Assembly (NCBI GenBank): GCA_003285105.1
Contig: CP030158.1
Coordinates: 3,330,664-3,394,663 of the forward strand
Direction of reading: 5' to 3'
Length of the DNA stretch: 64,000 nucleotides
Origin: Roseithermus sacchariphilus
GTDB taxonomy: Bacteria > Bacteroidota > Rhodothermia > Rhodothermales > MEBIC09517
Positions 11,868 through 28,713 of the stretch are shown here, one piece after another (position 1 is the stretch's first letter; each line of letters opens with the position of its first letter). A program made the position numbers and the translations under genes. Below the pieces are notes generated by a model, which ran no database searches, was not told the origin of the DNA, and worked only from the letters and a program-made list of their open reading frames with translations.

Positions 11868-12118
11868 GGCGGGGGGAATCCGGGAAGCGGAGGCGCGTCA
11901 GTCCCGGCCGGGACCGACACCGTCGGGAGCGCTTCCGAACCTAGCACGCCGGATCGTCAGATGCAAAGGGAGATGGAGGTGGTCGTCACGTTGTCATTTT
12001 CAACGCTGACCCAGAGTTATGGGCAGAACTGGGCGACCGGAAAGATGGAGCCGGGAATGCAGTAGCCGGGAGTGATGTGGTTTGTCTCGTGGGTCTGGGT
12101 GGCTGTGACAGGGAGCAT
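11868..12118. other. Intergenic spacer before the array
   Basis: About 250 bp with no supported gene. It should contain the promoter for the sugar-acid operon on the minus strand, but I see no convincing -35/-10 pair. The part next to the array has no further recognisable repeat. Confidence 0.5.
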
Positions 12119-15100
12119 GAAGATGACCCTACGGGTGTGGGGATAGGCTCGTCATCGTCGAGTTTCCAACGTCGGCGTTCGCTTCACCCCCACGGGCGTG
12201 GGGACAGGCGGCGACGGCGACCACCAGCCAGACGGGCCGCCGGTTCACCCCCACGGGCGTGGGGACAGGTATGGATCGATTAGCTACCTTGATCGGCTGG
12301 GCGGTTCACCCCCACGGGCGTGGGGACAGGTAGGTGCGCTTTTGGTAGTGCTTCAATTTGTACGGTTCACCCCCACGGGCGTGGGGACAGGCTCGTCTCC
12401 CCGGTCACGGCGTGCCACATGCCCGGTTCACCCCCACGGGCGTGGGGACAGGTAGGCCCCGATGGCGCCGGCGGCCTCGTAGTTCGGTTCACCCCCACGG
12501 GCGTGGGGACAGGGGGTACCGCACGTATCTGACGCAGGGGAAATCCGGTTCACCCCCACGGGCGTGGGGACAGGCATGGCTTTCGAACTCGTGCTCATGG
12601 CATTTTCGGTTCACCCCCACGGGCGTGGGGACAGGTACGACGACGCCGCCAGGCTGATTGAATACTACGGTTCACCCCCACGGGCGTGGGGACAGGGCCA
12701 GCAGCGTGATGGCGTCGATGAGCTCCTGCGGTTCACCCCCACGGGCGTGGGGACAGGCGCCAGCGAGCCTCCTCCTCCGGGCTGTAGGGCGGTTCACCCC
12801 CACGGGCGTGGGGACAGGCAACCCATCGCCATGACACGCATCCTCCGCATCGGTTCACCCCCACGGGCGTGGGGACAGGGCGTCGGTGGGCTACCACACC
12901 GACAAGGGTGCCGGTTCACCCCCACGGGCGTGGGGACAGGAGCGGGGGTGTCGTGCAGATCCTCAACTATTACGGTTCACCCCCACGGGCGTGGGGACAG
13001 GGGCGGCACCGAGACATCGCCGGATCCATACTCCGGTTCACCCCCACGGGCGTGGGGACAGGAGGAGCCTGTTTGCCCCAGATTGCCACCCGCCCGGTTC
13101 ACCCCCACGGGCGTGGGGACAGGCTTCCCGCTGACCTGATGCTGCACGATGCGATCGGTTCACCCCCACGGGCGTGGGGACAGGCTTCCCGCTGACCTGA
13201 TGCTGCACGATGCGATCGGTTCACCCCCACGGGCGTGGGGACAGGGATATGCGCGTAGAAATTTCGCCTAGAGGCTTCGGTTCACCCCCACGGGCGTGGG
13301 GACAGGGGAGTAGCCGGATGACCGAGTGCTCCATCGACCGGTTCACCCCCACGGGCGTGGGGACAGGGCGAGCGTCCTGTTGCACGCAGATCTGATAAAC
13401 GGTTCACCCCCACGGGCGTGGGGACAGGCCTCCGCCGGCGCTATCCACTTTGGCTAAGTACGGTTCACCCCCACGGGCGTGGGGACAGGGCCACCTGCTG
13501 CATGACGTACTCCGTCGACTCCGGTTCACCCCCACGGGCGTGGGGACAGGTCATCGCCTCGGCGAGGGTTTTCGCCGCTTGCGGTTCACCCCCACGGGCG
13601 TGGGGACAGGGGGTCGGGGAAGGTGATGTCCTGGCTCGTGGCCGGTTCACCCCCACGGGCGTGGGGACAGGTGGCGCAGGCGCACGCCATCGCGACCGCC
13701 GTACGGTTCACCCCCACGGGCGTGGGGACAGGATGTCGATGCCTCTTGACACGGAGCTTCCGTGCGGTTCACCCCCACGGGCGTGGGGACAGGACCTCGT
13801 CCTCGCGCAGCACGATCCCGAAGCGCGGTTCACCCCCACGGGCGTGGGGACAGGTCAGGCGCATCTCTGACTTTTACCCCCCCCTGCGGTTCACCCCCAC
13901 GGGCGTGGGGACAGGCCGGTGGAGCCGGACGACGATCCGGCCGAGGCCGGTTCACCCCCACGGGCGTGGGGACAGGATGGCCGGGCAGGTCGTCGAGGCC
14001 GGCGCGGCCGGTTCACCCCCACGGGCGTGGGGACAGGTGCCCCGGCTCCCTGAGACGGTGGCGGATGGCCGGTTCACCCCCACGGGCGTGGGGACAGGAC
14101 CACCGAGGTGGCAACCGATTCGAGCTCCGTCGGTTCACCCCCACGGGCGTGGGGACAGGCGGGGCTTTCACGGTAATCTTTTTCGGCATGGCGGTTCACC
14201 CCCACGGGCGTGGGGACAGGCGGGGCTTTCACGGTAATCTTTTTCGGCATGGCGGTTCACCCCCACGGGCGTGGGGACAGGGTCATGCAACTGCGCCAGG
14301 TCGATCCCTCCACCGGTTCACCCCCACGGGCGTGGGGACAGGGGAGTTTGGGGCAATAGTTATAGCTCCGAAACCGGTTCACCCCCACGGGCGTGGGGAC
14401 AGGCGGGGCACCGCTCCTCGCAGGATCTCCATCAGCGGTTCACCCCCACGGGCGTGGGGACAGGGGCCCCAGCGCAGAACCCGGTGAGATATGTGCCGGT
14501 TCACCCCCACGGGCGTGGGGACAGGACGAGTCGCCCCCTCGTCCGTCTGCGCCATGGCGGTTCACCCCCACGGGCGTGGGGACAGGAGCAGTAGAGATCA
14601 TCCCATCACCTCCGAGATCGGTTCACCCCCACGGGCGTGGGGACAGGACCACCTGGGGCGGGCCGAGCGCGACCGCGTCTGGTTCACCCCCACGGGCGTG
14701 GGGACAGGGCTGCGGATGCTCTCGCTGATGCGCCGGGACGCGGTTCACCCCCACGGGCGTGGGGACAGGTCGAAGCCCTTTAAATGCGCCTATTTCCCCA
14801 ACGGTTCACCCCCACGGGCGTGGGGACAGGGGGTACGTGCAAGATTGCGCCATCGCTCAACGCGGTTCACCCCCACGGGCGTGGGGACAGGGTGGCCGAC
14901 CCGGCCGGGGGCGATGACCTGATCGGTTCACCCCCACGGGCGTGGGGACAGGCCCCTCGCACCGTCCGACACGGGAGAAGTGGCCGGTTCACCCCCACGG
15001 GCGTGGGGACAGGGGGTACGTGCAAGATTGCGCCATCGCTCAACGCGGTTCACCCCCACGGGCGTGGGGACAGGGTGGCCGACCCGGCCGGGGGCGATGA

Positions 15101-17208
15101 CCTGATCGGTTCACCCCCACGGGCGTGGGGACAGGAGCAGTAGAGATCATCCCATCACCTCCGAGATCGGTTCACCCCCACGGGCGTGGGGACAGGACCA
15201 CCTGGGGCGGGCCGAGCGCGACCGCGTCTGGTTCACCCCCACGGGCGTGGGGACAGGGCTGCGGATGCTCTCGCTGATGCGCCGGGACGCGGTTCACCCC
15301 CACGGGCGTGGGGACAGGTCGAAGCCCTTTAAATGCGCCTATTTCCCCAACGGTTCACCCCCACGGGCGTGGGGACAGGGGGTACGTGCAAGATTGCGCC
15401 ATCGCTCAACGCGGTTCACCCCCACGGGCGTGGGGACAGGGCAGCCATGTTGGAAGCCCACGAAATCGCAGACGGTTCACCCCCACGGGCGTGGGGACAG
15501 GGCGCCAGTACCGCGACAGTACCCCGCGCCCGTCGGTTCACCCCCACGGGCGTGGGGACAGGAATCCGACCCGGCAAGGTGTCCAGGTCAAATACGGTTC
15601 ACCCCCACGGGCGTGGGGACAGGCCAAAACGCTTTTTTAGATCCGCTACCGCGCCCGGTTCACCCCCACGGGCGTGGGGACAGGACGCGCCGCACCAGCC
15701 GCCCGCGCTCATCCTGCGGTTCACCCCCACGGGCGTGGGGACAGGTGCATGACCGAGGCGTACAAATCGACCCTTTTCGGTTCACCCCCACGGGCGTGGG
15801 GACAGGTTAAAAACCCCGTTAATCGGAATCGCTTCCGGCGGTTCACCCCCACGGGCGTGGGGACAGGGCATAGGTCTGATCCCGCCGGGCCAACGTTGTC
15901 GGTTCACCCCCACGGGCGTGGGGACAGGGGTATCGGCTGAGTTTCGATCCACTTAAGGCGCGGTTCACCCCCACGGGCGTGGGGACAGGACTTAAGGCTG
16001 ACTCTACCCAGGCCCCCATTTCGGTTCACCCCCACGGGCGTGGGGACAGGTAGGGCACGCTGGTCGACCAGCCCCCGCGCCACGGTTCACCCCCACGGGC
16101 GTGGGGACAGGTCCGGAGCCGCCGGGGGTGCCCTCGCCGGGGCCGGTTCACCCCCACGGGCGTGGGGACAGGTCATGGGGTGACTGATGGGACTGGGCTC
16201 TCTCCGGTTCACCCCCACGGGCGTGGGGACAGGGTAAGCACGTAGGGCCGCCGGGGACACAGGTACGGTTCACCCCCACGGGCGTGGGGACAGGTAGATA
16301 TTCCGGTAGGGAATTATCTCGGCCTGCGGTTCACCCCCACGGGCGTGGGGACAGGTAAAAACCCCATCAATCGGGATCGCCTGCGGCGGTTCACCCCCAC
16401 GGGCGTGGGGACAGGGGGGCCTGGCCACCGGCCAGGCATGTTCTTGACGGTTCACCCCCACGGGCGTGGGGACAGGTGGGGGTCATGTCGTGTGTGGGGG
16501 TCATGGCTCGGTTCACCCCCACGGGCGTGGGGACAGGACGGCAATCGCCGTAAAATCCGGCGTTCCGGCCGGTTCACCCCCACGGGCGTGGGGACAGGAT
16601 CTCAGCAACTTTCCTGTTTATTGATGCTTCCGGTTCACCCCCACGGGCGTGGGGACAGGCAAGGACGCCTCATCGACGGTCGTCGCGTCATCGGTTCACC
16701 CCCACGGGCGTGGGGACAGGGCACTCAGCACCTCGACTTCGCCCGCGTTGCCCGGTTCACCCCCACGGGCGTGGGGACAGGCACCTATACCCGAAGCGCC
16801 GGATGGGCTTGGACGGTTCACCCCCACGGGCGTGGGGACAGGCGCCACTGCTTGTCGCCGCTTGTGCCCGTCGTCGGTTCACCCCCACGGGCGTGGGGAC
16901 AGGTATTGTTCACGCCTTCGTCGAAACTGCCATCCCGGTTCACCCCCACGGGCGTGGGGACAGGAGCCTGCGCATCGAGGGGCTGGACACCGACGCCGGT
17001 TCACCCCCACGGGCGTGGGGACAGGCGCCGACGGCATGTACACGCTCGCCGTGCAGCCGGTTCACCCCCACGGGCGTGGGGACAGGGCGACCATCTCGGC
17101 GATCTGCCGGCAGACCTCCGGTTCACCCCCACGGGCGTGGGGACAGGGGCGGCATCGCAGAAGCCGATCAGCGCCAGCTCGGTTCACCCCCACGGGCGTG
17201 GGGACAGG
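12119..17208 (-). CRISPR. Type I-E CRISPR array, 84 repeats and 83 spacers
   Basis: Repeats are 29 nt with a 61-nt period. Read on the minus strand, the repeat starts CCTGTCCCC, has a 7-bp stem CCCCACG/CGTGGGG with a two-base loop, and ends in the handle GTGAACCG. That handle and the type I-E cas genes give the crRNA strand as minus. The repeat at 12119-12147 is degenerate and that at 12180 has one change, marking the old, leader-distal end; the leader is at 17209. Spacers are 32 nt except two of 31 nt (13551 and 16356). By eye 74 spacer sequences are distinct: two tandem pairs (13124/13185; 14160/14221) and a block duplication at 14587-15411 account for the rest. Repeats at 14680 and 15229 differ at the last handle base. 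Confidence 0.99.
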
Positions 17209-17272
17209 TCTAAAAAACGACGCCAAAAATCCCGATTTTGGGCAAAACGTTTCCGGTTGGGGTCTGCGCTGC
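17209..17272 (-). promoter_or_regulatory. CRISPR leader
   Basis: Only 64 bp lie between the newest repeat (ends 17208) and the cas2 stop. It is much richer in A and T than the surroundings and has a run of T on the minus strand directly before the first repeat. A near-palindrome CCAAAAATCC/CGATTTTGG occupies 17234-17252. By position it should hold the leader-end integration signals, and perhaps the array promoter, unless the promoter lies inside cas2. No clear -35/-10 pair can be named. Confidence 0.7.
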
Positions 17273-21362: not shown

Positions 21363-21896
21363 TCATCCCACCCAGTAGTCACGGGCCCATTGACGCTGCA
21401 CGAAGCGGCGCGGGTGGTCCCAGGCCAGCAGATCGTTCAGCAGGCGGAGGTGGTCCGGGGAGAGGCCGCGGGATGCCAGTTGCTGCACGAGCTGTCGGAG
21501 CCGGTAGGGCAGGTCCCCGGCGTCGGCGTCGAGCAGGGCCGTTACACGCCGGTCCAGGCTTTCGGCGCCGGCAGAGAGTTCGGCGCGCAGGCGGCGCAGG
21601 GTGGCACCCAGCGATTCTCTGGGACCTCCGGTTGAAGGGTTGAGGGCGAACAGGGCTGCCACCAGGAGGTAGGTTTCCAGGTCGTCATCAAGCAGAGATT
21701 CGGGCAACTGGTCGCCCACTTCACTCAGGCCGCTGTATGTGAGCGTTCGTCCCGTGAGGGTGCGGCGCAGGCGCGCCAGCCGTGCGCGGGCGGTGCTGTC
21801 GCCCGCTTCGGCCCGATGGGCCAGACCTATCAGGTAGCCGACGAAGTCGGTTCCCTGGAGGCGTGTCGCCCGGGGAGTGGTGGTTTCAGCAGTCAT
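21363..21896 (-). CDS. cse2: Cse2 (CasB, Cas11) Cascade small subunit
   Basis: A 177-residue, helix-rich and basic protein. Its place between cse1 and cas7e and features such as FVGYLIGLAHRAEAGDSTAR, ARLARLRRTL and DDLETYLLVAALFAL identify it as Cse2, which dimerises along the Cascade belly and stabilises the R-loop. The ATG overlaps the cse1 stop by four bases. The longer in-frame ORF starts inside cse1 and was rejected. Confidence 0.9.
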   Translation of the reverse strand: MTAETTTPRATRLQGTDFVGYLIGLAHRAEAGDSTARARLARLRRTLTGRTLTYSGLSEVGDQLPESLLDDDLETYLLVAALFALNPSTGGPRESLGATLRRLRAELSAGAESLDRRVTALLDADAGDLPYRLRQLVQQLASRGLSPDHLRLLNDLLAWDHPRRFVQRQWARDYWVG

Positions 21897-23482
21897 GCTT
21901 CCTCCGTGGTCAGGGTTTGAAGGTGTTCGCGAAAGGCTCTGGGACGCATGAGGCGGCGCGTTCCTTCGGCCACGGAGCGGAGCTGCCGGGCATCCCGGTC
22001 GAGGTGGGCGGTAGCAGCCCGGAACGCCTCCCGGGCGGCCCCATAGACGATTGCCGCCCATTTCCAGAGGAACGCCTGGCGCGTGTCGTAATCGTCCGCG
22101 GCGTGCTCGGCCAGCCGGGCCAGGAAAGCGTGGAAGTGGGGTTCCAGAGCTGTCCAGAAGGAAGGCTCGGCACCGAAAGCCGCAACCAGGGCGGTGATGT
22201 CTTTCGGATCGGCGTCGGGTGCGTCGTTCGTGCCGGGCTTCGGGGGGGCGAGCAGGAAGGCCGCAGTGGTGCGTAGCGCCCTGTTCAGGATGTCCCGTTG
22301 CTCGTTGGCGAGATCGAGCGCACCCTGGATCTGGTGGATCGGATGGCCTTCGTCCGTCGCGTCGGCGAGCAGGGCGGGGAAGACGGGCATCTGCTCATGC
22401 CGCCACATCTCCACCTTGGCCTGGTCGTTGATGAGCCCGAACACATCCACGGCATAGCGGTCGATGTCCGTGAGGCGGTGCACCTCGCGGAGCCACGAGA
22501 ACGTGCGGGGGCTGCCGCCTTCGCCGGGCCGCAGGAGCTTGAACAGCGTGTCCGCATCGCGCCATACGGCCCGGTCCGCCCGGAGGCCGTAGGGGAAGAC
22601 GCCCTTGGTTCTAGAGACGGCCGACGCCATCAGCGGGTCGTTCTGGACGGGTGGGTCGTCCTTGTCCCCCTGGGTGATGTAGACAGCCGTGGCGACCGTC
22701 TCTCCGCCGGGGTGGGTCTCGGTGACCAGCGTCAGGCGGCGAGCCTGCCACGTCAGGTAGTCCCGGTAGCCGTGCACCGGGCGCCGCGCATGGATTTTGG
22801 GCAGCGGGCGTTCCCAGGCCGGCGGCCACCCGGGGTCGTCGTTTTCGTGCAGCATCATGCGGGCTTCGGGCTCGGGGGAGGCGTTGAGTAGCAGGGCTTC
22901 AAAGAGGGAACGGCCCCGGATCCAGAAGACCGCACCACCCACGAGCGGGGCATGGGAAAAGTTGAACGGCTTCGACACCCCGCCGCCCAGGGCGGCTGCC
23001 TGCGTGCAGACAACGGCGCGGGCCGTCTCGGCCAGCGATCGGGGGCGGGGGAAGGCATCCACCTCGTGTCCGAACAGCGTGGCGTTGTTGCCGCTGGCCT
23101 CGGCGTGGAAGAGCTTGCTCAGCGGCGCGGGGTCTTTCGCCAGCGGCTCCGGGTGCTGGTAGAACGGGCGCTCGGGGTGCAGTAGGTCGAACCGATCCGC
23201 TCGCACGGGGTCGGCGAAGTAGGCATCGACGGCATGTTCGTCGAAGCGGCCGGCCTCCCAGCGGTCCCACCAGGCGTCCTCGTCCGGGTGCGGCAGGAAG
23301 CCGTCGATGACAATAGCCAGGAGTAGTCGGTTCAGCGCCGCCGTCTCGATGGGGTTGTCCGCATAGACTTCACGCCATTGGTGGGCGTTGACCAGCGCGT
23401 CACGAAGGCCCACCTCGTGGCGCCGGCCGTCGGCGTCGAGCACCGGCAGCCAGGGTTCATGGATCAGGTTGAAGGAGGGCAT
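21893..23482 (-). CDS. cse1: Cse1 (CasA, Cas8e) Cascade large subunit
   Basis: A 529-residue Cas8e, the subunit that reads the PAM and recruits Cas3. The start FNLIHEPWLPVLDADG and DNPIETAALNRLLLAI are the family's conserved N-terminal blocks. YQHPEP, ASGNNATLFGHEVD and LGGGVSKPFNFSHAPLVGGA follow. It heads the tightly overlapping Cascade gene run but is preceded by a 66-residue zinc-ribbon gene and an orphan repeat-like hairpin rather than by cas3. Confidence 0.96.
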   Translation of the reverse strand: MPSFNLIHEPWLPVLDADGRRHEVGLRDALVNAHQWREVYADNPIETAALNRLLLAIVIDGFLPHPDEDAWWDRWEAGRFDEHAVDAYFADPVRADRFDLLHPERPFYQHPEPLAKDPAPLSKLFHAEASGNNATLFGHEVDAFPRPRSLAETARAVVCTQAAALGGGVSKPFNFSHAPLVGGAVFWIRGRSLFEALLLNASPEPEARMMLHENDDPGWPPAWERPLPKIHARRPVHGYRDYLTWQARRLTLVTETHPGGETVATAVYITQGDKDDPPVQNDPLMASAVSRTKGVFPYGLRADRAVWRDADTLFKLLRPGEGGSPRTFSWLREVHRLTDIDRYAVDVFGLINDQAKVEMWRHEQMPVFPALLADATDEGHPIHQIQGALDLANEQRDILNRALRTTAAFLLAPPKPGTNDAPDADPKDITALVAAFGAEPSFWTALEPHFHAFLARLAEHAADDYDTRQAFLWKWAAIVYGAAREAFRAATAHLDRDARQLRSVAEGTRRLMRPRAFREHLQTLTTEEA

Positions 23483-23576
23483 GTCGGTCTGACAGATTTA
23501 GGAACGGGAAGGATACAAGATGACGATTCGGGATCAGCATGGTGATATGGCGAGCGCAGGGTATGGCGTCCGTAAA

Positions 23577-23605
23577 GGGTTCGCCCCCGCATGGGCGGGG
23601 ATAAA
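23577..23605 (-). repeat. Orphan CRISPR-repeat-like hairpin between zinc-ribbon gene and cse1
   Basis: A single 29-nt element with a 6-bp stem CCCCGC/GCGGGG around CCAT, preceded by TTTAT and followed by GCGAACCC on the minus strand. The last eight bases match the array handle GTGAACCG at six positions. Read on the plus strand the handle would be ATAAACGA, close to the E. coli-type handle. No second repeat is found a spacer length away. In the minus-strand operon mRNA it would place a Cas6e-like hairpin between two coding regions. Confidence 0.6.
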
Positions 23606-23610
23606 CGAGG

Positions 23611-23811
23611 TCAGTCGAGTGGCCAGAGCAGCTCGCAGCGCTCGCACACTCCGCCGTTGACGCCGACCATGTAGGCAGGAATGGCCTCCGCACCACATTT
23701 GACACACCGTATGGTCGGTGTGGATGCGTCGGGACGCGATCTGGGCTCCGAGGACTGGAGCCCAGAGGGTTTCCGCAACCAGGAGGGTTGCGCCGGCTTA
23801 GAGAATTGCAT
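23611..23811 (-). CDS. Small zinc-ribbon protein in the cas operon
   Basis: A 66-residue protein with a disordered, proline- and serine-rich N-terminal half (MQFSKPAQPSWLRKPSG) and a C-terminal zinc ribbon: CVKCGAEAIPAYMVGVNGG then CERCELLWPLD, giving CxxC and CxxC pairs 18 residues apart. It lies on the cas strand, 129 bp before cse1 and about 90 bp after a strong promoter, so it is probably the first gene of the Cascade operon. I do not know it as a standard type I-E component. It may bind nucleic acid or a Cas protein. Confidence 0.7.
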   Translation of the reverse strand: MQFSKPAQPSWLRKPSGLQSSEPRSRPDASTPTIRCVKCGAEAIPAYMVGVNGGVCERCELLWPLD

Positions 23812-23901
23812 ATTTTGCCGTCCGTCGCGGTACGCCGCGACTCATTAGGGTGATGCGAGCAGGTGATGGTCGCCAAACTTCCACCGCTCGCAGACTCGGT
23901 T
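23812..23901 (-). promoter_or_regulatory. Structured 5' leader of the zinc-ribbon/cse1 operon
   Basis: The predicted 5' untranslated region contains two strong inverted repeats. One is a perfect 7-bp stem GTCGCGG/CCGCGAC with a four-base loop at 23824-23841, starting 13 bases before the ATG. The other pairs 23854-23865 with 23882-23892 (TGCGAGC/GCTCGCA extended by GGTG/CACC, one bulged base). The nearer hairpin could influence ribosome access. No known riboswitch class is recognised. Confidence 0.45.
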
Positions 23902-23938
23902 CGGAGGCCAATATAAAACAGTGGCCTCCGTCTGTCAA
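23902..23938 (-). promoter_or_regulatory. Cas operon promoter with overlapping 9-bp dyad operator
   Basis: On the minus strand, TTGACA (23938-23933) and TATATT (23915-23910) are separated by exactly 17 bp, a near-consensus sigma-70-type promoter pointing to the zinc-ribbon/cse1 operon. A perfect 9-bp inverted repeat, CGGAGGCCA (23902-23910) and TGGCCTCCG (23922-23930), has half-sites 20 bp apart and covers the -10 box and the expected start site. This is a good candidate repressor operator. The WYL protein encoded at 27727-28713 is an obvious candidate ligand, by inference only. Confidence 0.7.
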
Positions 23939-23949
23939 GATAAAATTTA

Positions 23950-23973
23950 AAGTTGAGTTGGACTATTATAGTA
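23950..23973 (+). promoter_or_regulatory. Putative target site of the crRNA-like RNA
   Basis: AAG (23950-23952) is followed by a 21-nt stretch that matches the orphan spacer at 23999-24019 in 16 of 21 positions. Positions 1-5 and 7-10 match; mismatches are at 6, 11, 12, 17 and 21. AAG is a standard type I-E PAM, and position 6 is not read by Cascade. The site begins 12 bp upstream of the cas promoter's -35 box and also covers TATTAT (23964-23969), a possible -10 of the small RNA itself. Confidence 0.6.
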
Positions 23974-24043
23974 TCCACAGACATCTGTGGGTGAACCATT
24001 GAGATGGATGATTAAAGTGTCTATCCCCACGCCCGTGGGGAAG
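23970..24043 (+). ncRNA. Candidate natural crRNA-like regulatory RNA (mini-CRISPR)
   Basis: On the plus strand, repeat 1 (23970-23998) matches the array repeat in 18 of 29 positions. It keeps a 7-bp stem CCACAGA/TCTGTGG at the same positions, with three pairs changed on both sides, and ends GTGAACCA against GTGAACCG. A 21-nt spacer (23999-24019) follows. Repeat 2 (24020-24048) is identical to the array from stem start to stem end (24025-24040) but has lost the handle. Cas6e cleavage would give an 8-nt handle, a 21-nt spacer and a 3' hairpin. An intrinsic terminator follows directly. The promoter is uncertain: TATTAT at 23964 has no good -35. Similar in principle to CreA/CreR RNAs. Confidence 0.7.
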
Positions 24044-24077
24044 GGGTCGGGGGTCTTGTGCCCCCGACCTATTTTTT
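24044..24077 (+). terminator. Intrinsic terminator of the crRNA-like RNA gene
   Basis: A 9-bp GC-rich stem GGTCGGGGG/CCCCCGACC with a seven-base loop, followed by ATTTTTT on the plus strand. The T run exists only on the plus strand, so the signal ends plus-strand transcription, opposite to cas3 whose stop codon (24069-24071) lies inside it. This directionality supports a dedicated plus-strand RNA gene just upstream. Confidence 0.85.
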
Positions 24078-26894
24078 AACTCGCTCGATACAGATGCCCA
24101 GCTCGGCATCTTCGGTGATGCGATAGCCGGCCACGTCGGCCTTCCCCGCGGTGAGGATCAGCGGGTGGCGATGTTGCAGGGCCGGCGTGTGGGCGGCGGC
24201 CTCGCGCCAGGGTTCGGGGAGTTCGGTCTCATCTCGCTCCCGGAGCGCCTGTGCGATATCTTCGTAGCTGATGCGCACCGCGTTCTGGAGCAGGGCGCGT
24301 ACGCTCTCCACCGGCAGGTCTTTACGCCCCGCGGGCACGGACAGCGGTGCCGGCTCCGTGCAGGCCGGATCGAGAAAGAGGTCGCCGCTGGTTCCGGCGA
24401 AGAGCACCACCACCTCGGCACTCTCCGCACCCAGGCGGGTCAGGACACGCTGCGAAGGATGGGCCTCGTCGTCGTCCTCGTCGGCCAGGGTACGTTGATC
24501 CGGGTCCAGCAACTTGCGTAGTCCCTGGCGGGTGGGTTCAGGGATGAGCTGGCGGAAGGCTTCGTTTTCAGCCTCCTTTTCCATCTTGCCGACGGTCTGT
24601 ATTGCCTTTTTCCACTGCTTTAAGCCTTCGTCGGAGAGTCCTTCAGGTGCCTGCTGATCGTCGGCATAGACGGCTTCGATGAGTGTGCGGTAGTCGGCGG
24701 GCAGGTGCCATGTGTCACGGTCTTTCAGCACGGCCCAGGTCTTCCAGGCAATCGAAGGCGCGTAGACCGTGTAGCGCGAGGCCCGGATACCGATGTCGCT
24801 GAGATCGGGCAGGCATCCGGGATCGGCTTCGGGGCAGAGCCAGTAGACCATGGGCACACGGTAGCCTTCCGGCCGTTCTTCGGAAGGGCGGAGTTCAAGG
24901 TGCCGGTGCAGGCGTCCGGCCCGCTGGAGCATCAGGTCGATCGGGGTGAGGTCGGTGAAGAGTACATCGGCGTCAATGTCGAGCGATTGTTCGGCCAGCT
25001 GGGTGGCGACCAAAATTGCGCCACGCCCATTCGGGCGATTCTTGCCGAACCGCTTCAACACCTTTTTTTGTATAGATTTGCGGTGATGATGGCGGTAACG
25101 CGCATGCAGGAGCATTACGTCTTCGGTCTGAGCTCGCACCTCTTCTGGAAGTGCCTGGAAGATGGCCTGAGCGCGTCGCACAGTGTTGCAGATGATAAGC
25201 GCGACGGCTCCTTTCTCATAGGCCTCTACGGCTTTATCAGCCACCTCTTTTGGATCTGGCGTGAAACGGATCAGCCGAGCATTTTGCGCCCACCGCGTGG
25301 GGAATTCGCTTCGGTACAGCATGGCCTTTCCATTCTGCACCTGCCAGATCGCCGGATAGGGGACGGATGGGGGGGGGACGTCTTTTTCCGTCACCGTACC
25401 GCCCCAGGCCCTGAAGCAGGCCTCCCGAAAGCGGGCCGGCAACGTGGCTGAAAGAAGAATGACATGGCAGCCAAGGGCATGCAGCCACCGGAGTAGCCGC
25501 ACGAAGAGATGCTGCATGTACAGATCGTAGGCATGCACCTCATCGAAGATGACCGTCTTGCCGTAGAGGGCGAACAGGCGCAGGAAGAAGTGCCGGGCGT
25601 AGAGCACACCGAGGAAGGCCTGATCCACGGTGCCCAGGCCGTAGGGAGCCAGCAGGCTGCGTTTCCGCGGGAGGAACCATGTCAGCGTGCGAACCACCCC
25701 TTCAGTCCGGTCAGTGCCGTTCTGATCGTCCTGGTCGAAGAGTGCATCCAGATCCTCCACCTCGCAGATCAGATTCTCCTGATCGGGGGACAGGTCGGCG
25801 TTGCCATGCACCAGCCGAAAGTTGGCAGCTCCGGTATGGGCCTTTTCCAGAAAGTTCAGCGTGCGTTCGAATAGCCCCTCACTCGTAGCCTGGGTGGGCA
25901 TGGCCGTATAGAGACCGCTGCCCCGGGTATGTTCTTGTAGCCGTGCCGTCAGAGCAAAAGCGCCTTCGGTTTTGCCTTCTCCCGTCGGGCCCTCGACGAG
26001 GACCAGTGAAGGGGCTCCCTTCTCCGGCAGGGGCATCCGGACCAGGGCTTCCTGCATCGAGTTGGGAGCAAACGGGAAAAGGGCTTCGAAGCCCGGGAAG
26101 TGCAAGTGGGCCTGTCTTTCGAAGCCGGCGCTGCGAAGCGCCTGTTCCGCTCCCCGGCGGCTTTTCTCCAGGTAGGCCGTGAGGTTCGTGCCGGTATCGC
26201 GTGGGAAAAAGGAAGCCATGGAGCCCAGCCAGTCTGCCAGCGTGGCCCAGCCGCCGAAGGCAGGGAGCCAGACGGGCATGAGGCGGCCCGGAGGCGCAAC
26301 GGTTGCCTGGACGGGATAATGGCCGAACCAGACCTCTTGGAGGGCGTCGAGGAGAGCATGGCGTGTCTCCTTCCAGGTCCGGTCGCCGAAGATACCCAGG
26401 TTCGTAGAGTCGTTTTCCCAGTTCTGTCTAGCATAGAGCCGCCCGTGATGCGCTCCGACCCAGGCAGCGATCTGCTCTAAGAAGGCGGCATGAGGGGAGG
26501 TTTCCGACCATCTGGCCAGAATGGCGATGCTCGCGTGGCCGTGGTGTTTGCGTTCGTTAAACCCCTCGAACCGAAAGCCGGCCGCTTCGAGCTTTTCGCG
26601 AGAGGGAGGATGCAGTGCTTGAAACGTCGGGATGGCCTTGCCGATGTCATGTAGGCCGATCCAAAAGCTCAGCACATAACCTGCCTCTTCTACGGAGAGC
26701 CCGAGGTCATCAGCGATGCGCTGCTTCAGCTCGTGTGGCAGAAAAAACTGCCAGAGCAAAAGGGCGGTGTGGGCCACATCGAACAGGTGTGCCCAGAGCG
26801 GGCGGGTCCATTCAGGATCAACCAGTTTATTTTCTTTGTCTCGGCGGCGATCCGTCTTGGCCCAGAACAGGCGCCAGCTGGGGGTGTTTGTCAT
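24069..26894 (-). CDS. cas3: Cas3 nuclease-helicase (type I-E)
   Basis: A 941-residue Cas3 that degrades the DNA strand exposed by Cascade. The HD nuclease part shows LWAHLFDVAHTALLL and GLHDIGKAIPTFQALH; the SF2 helicase part shows GPTGEGKTEGAFAL (Walker A near residue 310), IFDEVHAYD (DEVH box) and QLAEQSLDIDADVLFTDL with RAGRLHRH (motif VI). Its ATG overlaps the stop of the upstream nuclease gene by four bases. Its 3' end faces a plus-strand RNA gene and terminator, so it is not tightly fused to the Cascade operon. Confidence 0.97.
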   Translation of the reverse strand: MTNTPSWRLFWAKTDRRRDKENKLVDPEWTRPLWAHLFDVAHTALLLWQFFLPHELKQRIADDLGLSVEEAGYVLSFWIGLHDIGKAIPTFQALHPPSREKLEAAGFRFEGFNERKHHGHASIAILARWSETSPHAAFLEQIAAWVGAHHGRLYARQNWENDSTNLGIFGDRTWKETRHALLDALQEVWFGHYPVQATVAPPGRLMPVWLPAFGGWATLADWLGSMASFFPRDTGTNLTAYLEKSRRGAEQALRSAGFERQAHLHFPGFEALFPFAPNSMQEALVRMPLPEKGAPSLVLVEGPTGEGKTEGAFALTARLQEHTRGSGLYTAMPTQATSEGLFERTLNFLEKAHTGAANFRLVHGNADLSPDQENLICEVEDLDALFDQDDQNGTDRTEGVVRTLTWFLPRKRSLLAPYGLGTVDQAFLGVLYARHFFLRLFALYGKTVIFDEVHAYDLYMQHLFVRLLRWLHALGCHVILLSATLPARFREACFRAWGGTVTEKDVPPPSVPYPAIWQVQNGKAMLYRSEFPTRWAQNARLIRFTPDPKEVADKAVEAYEKGAVALIICNTVRRAQAIFQALPEEVRAQTEDVMLLHARYRHHHRKSIQKKVLKRFGKNRPNGRGAILVATQLAEQSLDIDADVLFTDLTPIDLMLQRAGRLHRHLELRPSEERPEGYRVPMVYWLCPEADPGCLPDLSDIGIRASRYTVYAPSIAWKTWAVLKDRDTWHLPADYRTLIEAVYADDQQAPEGLSDEGLKQWKKAIQTVGKMEKEAENEAFRQLIPEPTRQGLRKLLDPDQRTLADEDDDEAHPSQRVLTRLGAESAEVVVLFAGTSGDLFLDPACTEPAPLSVPAGRKDLPVESVRALLQNAVRISYEDIAQALRERDETELPEPWREAAAHTPALQHRHPLILTAGKADVAGYRITEDAELGICIERVKK

Positions 26895-27622
26895 AGCTGA
26901 TGGTGCTTATTATAGTGAGACATACGGCGTGCCAGGGCGCGGCGCCGGTTCGAATAGGTGCAACACGGACAGTCAGGAGCGGCCTTCGGAGGGAGGGGGC
27001 GGGCAAGGACCTCCAGCACCTCTTCGAGGAAGGCATCGAAGGTGGCGTCATCGCGCCGGATCTCGATCCAAGCGGGCTGCAGCCGCACCAGCAGCCGGTC
27101 GCCGGCCGTATGCGATTCGACCTGCACGGGGTCGATGCAGAAGAGCCCCATGCGGGTGATGGGACCGCGGCACAAGCCCGTCGGAGCGGCCATCTCCAGC
27201 GCGCGGGCGTAGGCATGGAGCTGTCTGGCATATTTGTCCTCGTGCTCACCGTTCGGTGCAACCATCTTGAAGTCGATCAGGCCCCAGGTACCGTCGTCGA
27301 ATTGTGCCAGATGATCGAGGCGTCCCCGGATAAAGTAGCTGGAGGTTCTCGTCTGGAGGGGGCGAGAGGTAACCCACAATTCCCCTCCGACGAAACGTCC
27401 GGGAGGAAGGGAGGGCTCTAATAGTGAGGGGCACTTAAATAGTGAGGGGCACTTACCCAGAAAGAAGCGGGTAAGGGCGTCGTGATAGCGGGAAAAGACG
27501 GCCGGAAAGGGCAGGCGGGGACGGGCCAACCCGTGGGCGTGAAGCCAGAAACAGCGACGGCATTCTTCCCACAGAAACGTCAACATCGAAGGGGTAAGCC
27601 TGACGGGTAGGGGGGTGTTCAT
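26891..27622 (-). CDS. Cas4-like PD-(D/E)XK nuclease coupled to cas3
   Basis: A 243-residue RecB/Cas4-like nuclease. N-terminal cysteines are in EECRRCFWLHAHG and a C-terminal cluster in PDCPCCTYSNRR, an arrangement like the iron-sulfur cluster of Cas4/AddB-type proteins. Catalytic residues are suggested by IRGRLDHLAQFDDG (Asp) and WGLIDFKMV (DxK), with a QLHAYA motif after it. It overlaps cas3 by ATGA, so translation is coupled. Cas4 is not normally part of type I-E. An upstream in-frame ATG at 27715 would add 31 residues. An 18-bp tandem duplication at 27420-27455 repeats KCPSLF/KCPSLL. Confidence 0.72.
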   Translation of the reverse strand: MNTPLPVRLTPSMLTFLWEECRRCFWLHAHGLARPRLPFPAVFSRYHDALTRFFLGKCPSLFKCPSLLEPSLPPGRFVGGELWVTSRPLQTRTSSYFIRGRLDHLAQFDDGTWGLIDFKMVAPNGEHEDKYARQLHAYARALEMAAPTGLCRGPITRMGLFCIDPVQVESHTAGDRLLVRLQPAWIEIRRDDATFDAFLEEVLEVLARPLPPKAAPDCPCCTYSNRRRALARRMSHYNKHHQL

Positions 27623-27726
27623 GGCAAAAACACATCCGGGAGGGAAAACATAACCTTCCCGAACATACAAACGTCCCTCTGCCAGACCGGACCTTAAAAA
27701 CTCGAACCCGGACATTATCGGGCCGG

Positions 27727-28713
27727 CTATTCGCCCGGATAGTGGCGGGCCAGCGCCCGGCTCTCCTCCTGCATGCGGGCCACCAGTTCGGGGGGATCGA
27801 GGACCTTTACGCCGGAGCCCCAGCTCAGGCAAAAGGCCCGGAGGGCTTCCAGGCCGGCGGCTTCGAAAGACACGATGATGCGCCCGTCCTCCAGGTGTCG
27901 CTCGATTTGCTGGGTCGGGTGATAGATCTTGCGTTCGAAGTAAGGAGCGCGGTCGGCCTCGACGAGAAGGCGCACGGTCAACACTTCGCCGGCCAGGCTG
28001 CCGAAGCGGTCCCGAAAGTAGAGGTCCGGGTCAAAGCCCTCAGGTGGAGAAAAGAAGGAGTTCGTGGGCCGAATGGCCCGTATGCCGGCGATGGCGAAAT
28101 CCCGGATGGCGCGCCGCCGGTGACACCAGGCCACGACCAGCCACGATCCTCCCGGCATGCCGAACATGAGCGGGTCGATGCGCCGGTTGCGCGAGACGGT
28201 GTTGTTGCTGGCCGTATGGTAATCGATGAGCATCGTGCGCTTCTCTTCGATGGCACGGCTGAGGGTGTGGAATATCTCTGCATTGATCGGGATGATGCCG
28301 GGGGAACCGAAGTGCCAGTGCGAGGGGAGTTCTTCCAGGCTGAAGGAGTAAACATTAGGGGCCAGATCATGGATGAGTTTGTCGAAAACATGTTCGAGCG
28401 GAGCGCCCAGGGGTGTGGCGGCCAGCGTGGCTCTGGCAGCCTCGACCGCTACTGTCAATGCTAATGCTTCTTTTTCGGTAATGGTTAGGTGTTGTAAGGT
28501 AGTCTGGCGGTCCTGCTCGGGGATGAAAAAGAGCTTTCTCCGGCCTTTTCGGATACTTGATACGTGGATTCCCTCATCGGCAATCTTCTTTAGTAAACGG
28601 CGAGCATGTCGCTCTGAAATCCCGAACCGTTGGGAAATATCCTGCAGTGAAATCTCTGCTCCTGTGTCAAGAATGGATCGAAGCGTTGAAAGAGTGATAG
28701 AAGGTCGTGGCAT
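27727..28713 (-). CDS. HTH and WYL-domain transcriptional regulator
   Basis: A 328-residue regulator. The N-terminal winged helix (ISLQDISQRFGISERHARRLLKKI) is DeoR-like; the middle holds a WYL-type domain, here IDYHTASNNTVSRNRRIDPL and SWLVVAWCHRRRAIRDFAIAGI, and a WCX-like C-terminal part (ERHLEDGRIIVSFEAAGLEAL). WYL proteins often sense nucleic-acid or nucleotide ligands and control CRISPR-Cas and other defence loci. Located at the head of the cas gene run, it probably regulates the nuclease-cas3 unit and perhaps the operator at 23902-23930. Confidence 0.88.
   Translation of the reverse strand: MPRPSITLSTLRSILDTGAEISLQDISQRFGISERHARRLLKKIADEGIHVSSIRKGRRKLFFIPEQDRQTTLQHLTITEKEALALTVAVEAARATLAATPLGAPLEHVFDKLIHDLAPNVYSFSLEELPSHWHFGSPGIIPINAEIFHTLSRAIEEKRTMLIDYHTASNNTVSRNRRIDPLMFGMPGGSWLVVAWCHRRRAIRDFAIAGIRAIRPTNSFFSPPEGFDPDLYFRDRFGSLAGEVLTVRLLVEADRAPYFERKIYHPTQQIERHLEDGRIIVSFEAAGLEALRAFCLSWGSGVKVLDPPELVARMQEESRALARHYPGE

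Follow-up and report, generated by a model that had tools for sequence, protein, structure and literature searches.

A candidate Cas-regulating RNA gene and a perfect dyad at the promoter of a bacterial type I-E cas operon

Introduction

CreR (Cas-regulating RNA) was reportedly introduced by Liu et al. in 2023. According to one review, types I-B, I-E, and V-A have CreRs through which the Cas proteins repress themselves (PMC13131331), and CreR is also treated in two further reviews (PMC12948488, PMC12737573). In the repeats of CreA, psiR1 keeps the 5' handle and psiR2 the 3' handle (PMC9458426), and guide positions 1-5 and 7-11 are required (PMC8501985). Regulation by proteins is described as well: a type I-D locus is under repression by the WYL protein Sll7009, and the inverted repeats to which BrxR binds have 11-bp arms and a 5-bp gap (PMC9122601).

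Here we analyze a cas locus of Roseithermus sacchariphilus within a window of 64,000 nucleotides, the whole stretch of DNA considered. An earlier reading of the same window, made from the letters alone (the sequence-only reading), had pointed to a strong cas promoter under two layers of control, a repressor and a crRNA-like RNA. We conclude, with a probability of about 0.72, that the site is the promoter of a type I-E effector operon (cse1-cse2-cas7-cas6e-cas1-cas2) accompanied by a divergent gene of the CreR type.

Results

According to the gene calls, cse1, the first Cascade gene (21893-23482, minus strand), is followed by cse2, cas7, cas6e, cas1, and cas2, and cas3 (24069-26894, minus strand) lies upstream of the region studied. 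Direct reading of the sequence returned exactly the near-consensus minus-strand promoter that the sequence-only reading had given: a −35 element TTGACA (23938-23933), a spacer of 17 bp, and a −10 element TATATT (23915-23910), with the start predicted at ~23903. Many members of the phylum have a promoter consensus other than TTGACA-17-TATAAT, and the meaning of this pattern was for that reason checked in this genome, a single G+C-rich contig of 4,807,988 bp; a prior statistical test on 138 predicted upstream regions had been uninformative, and the sigma consensus was judged by a whole-genome pattern search. The cas promoter matches the consensus at 11 of 12 positions, has the top score in a 13-kb scan, and is one of ten genome sites within one mismatch of TTGACA-N17-TATAAT, the reversed pattern giving no sites at that threshold. 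Of the other near-consensus sites, two stand no more than ~35 bp from genes for tRNA-Met and tRNA-Ala, and further ones precede a cold-shock gene and a gene for a LacI-type regulator, which argues that this organism does make use of a consensus like that of E. coli. As only ten such sites exist and some precede tRNA genes, the cas promoter belongs to the strongest class of the genome; it is a sigma70-type promoter with consensus hexamers 17 bp apart, of the kind that the organism uses. The description of the promoter as unusually strong is borne out by these numbers, but that of the operon as silent-prone found no support here. Upstream of the −35 element lies an A+T tract (23940-23952, minus strand) that resembles an UP element and may act as one, and whose upstream end, read on the plus strand, is an AAG PAM.

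On the strand opposite the operon, positions 23970-24070 hold a degenerate repeat, a 21-nt guide, a second repeat, and a terminator. By repeat comparison and folding, psiR1 (23970-23998, plus strand) is a degenerate repeat with a hairpin and a 5' handle GTGAACCA that matches at 7 of 8 positions, while psiR2 (24020-24048, plus strand) has retained the 3'-handle part (19/21) and lost the 5' handle (1/8); the array repeat in the crRNA sense is CCTGTCCCCACGCCCGTGGGGGTGAACCG. Between them lies the guide, TTGAGATGGATGATTAAAGTG (23999-24019, plus strand), identified by its target match. An intrinsic terminator is predicted at 24044-24079 on the plus strand, and the centroid fold of the RNA consists of a hairpin, an open guide, a hairpin, and the terminator (z −4.15). 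TATTAT (23964-23969, plus strand) is the likely −10 element of the gene, and no clear −35 element was recognized in the sequence. Two degenerate repeats around a short pseudo-spacer, placed in the cas locus and apart from the array (~12127-17209), are the anatomy expected of a CreR gene. The array itself (12100-17215) yielded 78 spacers, 70 of them unique, and the partial repetition of spacers as blocks (e.g., around 14771-15441) suggests segmental duplication.

In an Rfam comparison, psiR2 and the terminator matched the Chlorobi-1 RNA family with 24.8 bits, where the cutoff is 50, and that identity was rejected. Chlorobi genomes carry the family in multiple copies, often without any Cse1 match, and we thus judged the similarity to be a chance resemblance of two hairpins. 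In some Chlorobi genomes, several copies of Chlorobi-1 lie ~230 bp apart (L078, G251:C1:1700054-1700572), and the first stem of the family, CCUCACGCCAGUGAGG, looks much like the hairpin of a type I-E repeat.

Searches for guide matches in the window placed the best hit other than the guide itself at 23953, directly behind the PAM AAG (23950-23952), with 16 of 21 positions and the whole seed (7/7) identical. Positions 1-5, 7-10, 13-16, and 18-20 of the guide are paired to this partial protospacer (23953-23978, plus strand) and position 11 forms a G-U pair; positions 6 and 12 are those flipped out and unpaired in type I complexes, so that, with wobble-tolerant pairing extending to position 26, position 17 is the sole true mismatch within 26. 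None of 4,000 shuffled guides reached an AWG PAM, a full seed, and at least 14 matches, and the genome has no other site for the guide at two or fewer mismatches. AAG is a PAM of type I-E; a search in phages for protospacers of the array, from which a local PAM might be derived, gave no usable protospacer, and no array spacer targets the window itself. Partial, PAM-flanked seed complementarity to the cas promoter region, the second hallmark of a CreR, is found in the sequence of this locus. The target overlaps the TATTAT and the start of the crRNA-like gene, and its PAM lies in the A+T tract, 11 bp from the cas −35 element on the upstream side. Such a distance is within the usual reach of RNA polymerase, and bound Cascade may overlap the polymerase footprint at the cas promoter.

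Promoter, dyad, and RNA gene make up a module of ~507 bp between cas3 and cse1 (23530-24036), delimited by genome comparison and missing in the two nearest relatives with the operon. In the relative G010, whose cse1 is 92% identical and whose sequence flanking the module is 89-96% identical, ~5 bp stand in its place, and a more distant relative (77%) also has a short gap there. Among the phylum's other Cse1 loci, 25 were compared and none has such a module before cse1, and a class-wide DNA search returned only array repeats and short matches judged to be chance. G010 keeps a plus-strand terminator hairpin and T-run at the cas3 end; furthermore, the CCTGT of this array corresponds to TCTAT in psiR2, and the array of G010 and the terminal repeat of this array have CCTAT. 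The retained terminator hairpin and the repeat pattern may point to loss of an old module by G010 more than to its recent acquisition in this genome, although the outgroup has no module either.

Within the promoter we confirmed a perfect 9-bp dyad that the sequence-only reading had placed over the −10 element and the start. Its arms on the plus strand, CGGAGGCCA (23902-23910) and TGGCCTCCG (23922-23930), are separated by a loop of 11 bp and centered on 23906 and 23926, 20 bp apart; one covers the last −10 base and the predicted start and the other lies inside the −35/−10 spacer. Arms two helical turns apart over the spacer, the end of the −10 element, and the start occupy the classical position of an operator. 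The search for additional copies that had been proposed found none in the genome at two or fewer mismatches, and the dyad was also single-copy when the loop was varied from 5 to 17. A perfect 9-bp dyad arose in 0.025% of first-order Markov resamples of the 50-bp promoter, although the raw 64 kb contains 13 distinct perfect dyads of at least 9 bp (loops 3-25), so that what is unusual is the position of this one in a promoter. Judged by position and improbability alone, it is plausible that the dyad CGGAGGCCA-N11-TGGCCTCCG (23902-23930) is a protein operator adding a second brake.

The chief competitor to the operator part of our reading is that the dyad has no regulatory role and arose by chance or as part of another element, and we regard this as a real possibility, if not the one we favor. 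With 13 distinct ones in the window, such dyads are not rare, the module has another perfect dyad (23740-23766), and conservation offers the operator no backing; against this stand the exact placement over the spacer, −10 end, and start and the 0.025% frequency in resamples. Absence from related cas promoters had been named as evidence against the dyad. It is indeed confined to this genome, but the relatives lack the whole promoter module, and its absence there accordingly says little about function. A comparable dyad is found in one other of the ten near-consensus promoters, the one before the LacI-type regulator gene. A third copy of the 9-mer, a lone half-site CGGAGGCCA, lies at 23682-23690 on the minus strand, 220 bp into the leader and within a small ORF. 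Two relatives of the same order, L030 and L033, have in common another dyad, GTGACAta(a/c)cgtTGTCAC, a short way before cse1.

The predicted leader of the cse1 mRNA (23483-23903, minus strand), as outlined by ORF, fold, and repeat comparison, is ~420 nt long and bears on a further alternative, which we consider unlikely: that the locus is a CreTA/CrePA system, in which the RNA is the antitoxin CreA, the promoter drives a toxic RNA or peptide encoded in the leader, and the cell comes to depend on Cascade. The guide has the anatomy of a CreA guide, the strong promoter lies directly downstream of the target, and a long structured stretch (z −3.28 against shuffles for the first 344 nt) with a 66-codon CxxC..CxxC ORF (23611-23811) precedes cse1. 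The coding status of this ORF is doubtful, however, its coding score being low, and it matched no toxin family. No creT gene, that is, a short ORF with a strong ribosome site and rare AGA/AUA codons, was recognized by eye among the ORFs under the targeted promoter, known toxins being sequence-diverse. Moreover, the minus strand has no terminator between the promoter and cse1, so that the promoter should feed the cas genes too, and G010 retains the operon without the module. As for the zinc-ribbon-like character of the ORF, assignment to a known family was dropped when Pfam, PHROGs, plasmids, viral contigs, and genomes of the phylum gave no convincing match.

The leader further contains the 10-bp inverted repeat at 23740-23766, predicted to form a strong RNA hairpin without a T-run, and psiR3 (23577-23605, minus strand), a weak repeat-like hairpin with a handle-like GCGAACC. 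It agrees with the repeat at 19 of 29 positions, no more than background, and for the guide that it would define (32 nt after the hairpin) the window holds no target. That Cas6e cleaves the cas mRNA at psiR3, as post-transcriptional control, is speculation, and an arrangement of three stacked controls, with CreR acting on both promoters, a repressor on the dyad, and a repeat-like hairpin cut by Cas6e in the cse1 leader, appears quite improbable.

For the protein that might bind the dyad, the sequence-only reading had named the WYL/WCX regulator encoded at 27727-28713 (minus strand). The WYL gene is located in the operon, and there is precedent in Sll7009, which represses a type I-D locus, and in BrxR, which binds inverted repeats, though with arms of 11 bp and a gap of 5 bp (PMC9122601) against the 9 bp and 11 bp seen here. 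The protein is nevertheless 83% identical in G010, which has neither promoter nor dyad, and three cas-linked WYL genes have no copy of the half-site core in the ~500 bp before them; because of these two observations we consider WYL very unlikely to be the repressor. The dyad lies neither at the WYL genes' own promoters nor travels with WYL in relatives, and neither the genome searches with the dyad nor the search upstream of WYL genes turned up a regulator for it. A second, diverged type I-E locus of the same genome (L051:8795-19018), with the gene order WYL-cas1-cas2-cas3, has its own WYL gene, 40% identical to this one. Between WYL and cas3 in the present locus lies a PD-(D/E)XK nuclease gene (Pfam PDDEXK_1, 26891-27832), conserved in G010 and an unusual companion for a type I-E operon.

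That the RNA controls only itself and a dyad-bound protein alone controls the cas promoter would suit a target squarely on the −10 element and start of the RNA gene and a dyad squarely on the cas promoter, but we hold it to be highly improbable, as an RNA with self-repression as its single job would be pointless, the PAM edge is only 11 bp from the −35 element and so within the usual reach of polymerase, and no dyad-binding protein was found.

Discussion

We infer a CreR-type mechanism for the locus. The plus-strand gene at 23970-24070 would be transcribed into a crRNA-like RNA whose two degenerate repeats serve as cleavage sites for Cas6e, and Cascade carrying the 21-nt guide would bind the PAM-flanked target at 23950-23978 through partial pairing; as the pairing is only partial, bound Cascade should block rather than cleave. 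It would cover the −10 element and start of the crRNA-like gene, repressing it, and would occupy about −47 to −80 relative to the cas start, where it would keep RNA polymerase off the A+T tract and the upstream edge of the promoter. High levels of Cascade would in this way shut off their own synthesis, and loss of Cascade, competition from new crRNAs, or an anti-CRISPR would release a very strong cas promoter. A regulator bound to the dyad may form a second brake.

Some features weigh against this CreR reading. The target is located off the core promoter, on the upstream side of the cas −35 element, and autorepression of the RNA gene could be the most direct effect; the RNA gene has no clear −35 element; and, with the module missing in the two nearest relatives, conservation cannot serve as evidence. 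Of the two layers of control proposed earlier, the RNA-guided one appears the better supported, the crRNA-like RNA being apparently able to control the strong promoter, while the dyad repressor is only plausible and WYL disfavored as its identity.

If correct, the CreR reading would offer a clean bacterial case of RNA-guided cas autorepression, in which target, PAM, and seed are open to single-base tests. On this view, a cell may safely maintain a strong cas promoter, since what the promoter makes turns it off again. Should the dyad also be an operator, one 80-bp site would bring together a sensor of the internal state, free Cascade, and a second signal. The presence or absence of the module among relatives in which the operon is otherwise the same provides a natural comparison. 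This bacterial case is, as far as could be found, undescribed.

Among known systems, the WYL repressors Sll7009 and BrxR share with the locus a WYL gene in a CRISPR locus and an inverted repeat at a promoter, but the dyad here has a different geometry and does not travel with the WYL gene. The resemblance to CreA of CreTA is closer: psiR1 has the 5' handle and psiR2 the 3' handle (PMC9458426), the seed pairs at 1-5 and 7-11, position 11 here being G-U (PMC8501985), and the RNA would act back on the promoter serving itself (PMC8501985, PMC9458426). The locus differs from CreTA in its divergent orientation, in that no creT was found, and in being a bacterial type I-E system whereas CreTA is haloarchaeal and type I-B. 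With CreR, as characterized in the review descriptions, it shares a crRNA-like RNA that is encoded in the cas locus and has degenerate repeats, a seed that matches the cas promoter region partially and next to a PAM, and type I-E, one of the reported subtypes. Compared through those reviews, it differs in that the target lies just upstream of the cas −35 element, on the RNA's own −10, and in that the cas promoter also carries a perfect dyad. CreR-type anatomy has already been reported for type I-E, and the locus described here would be a further case.
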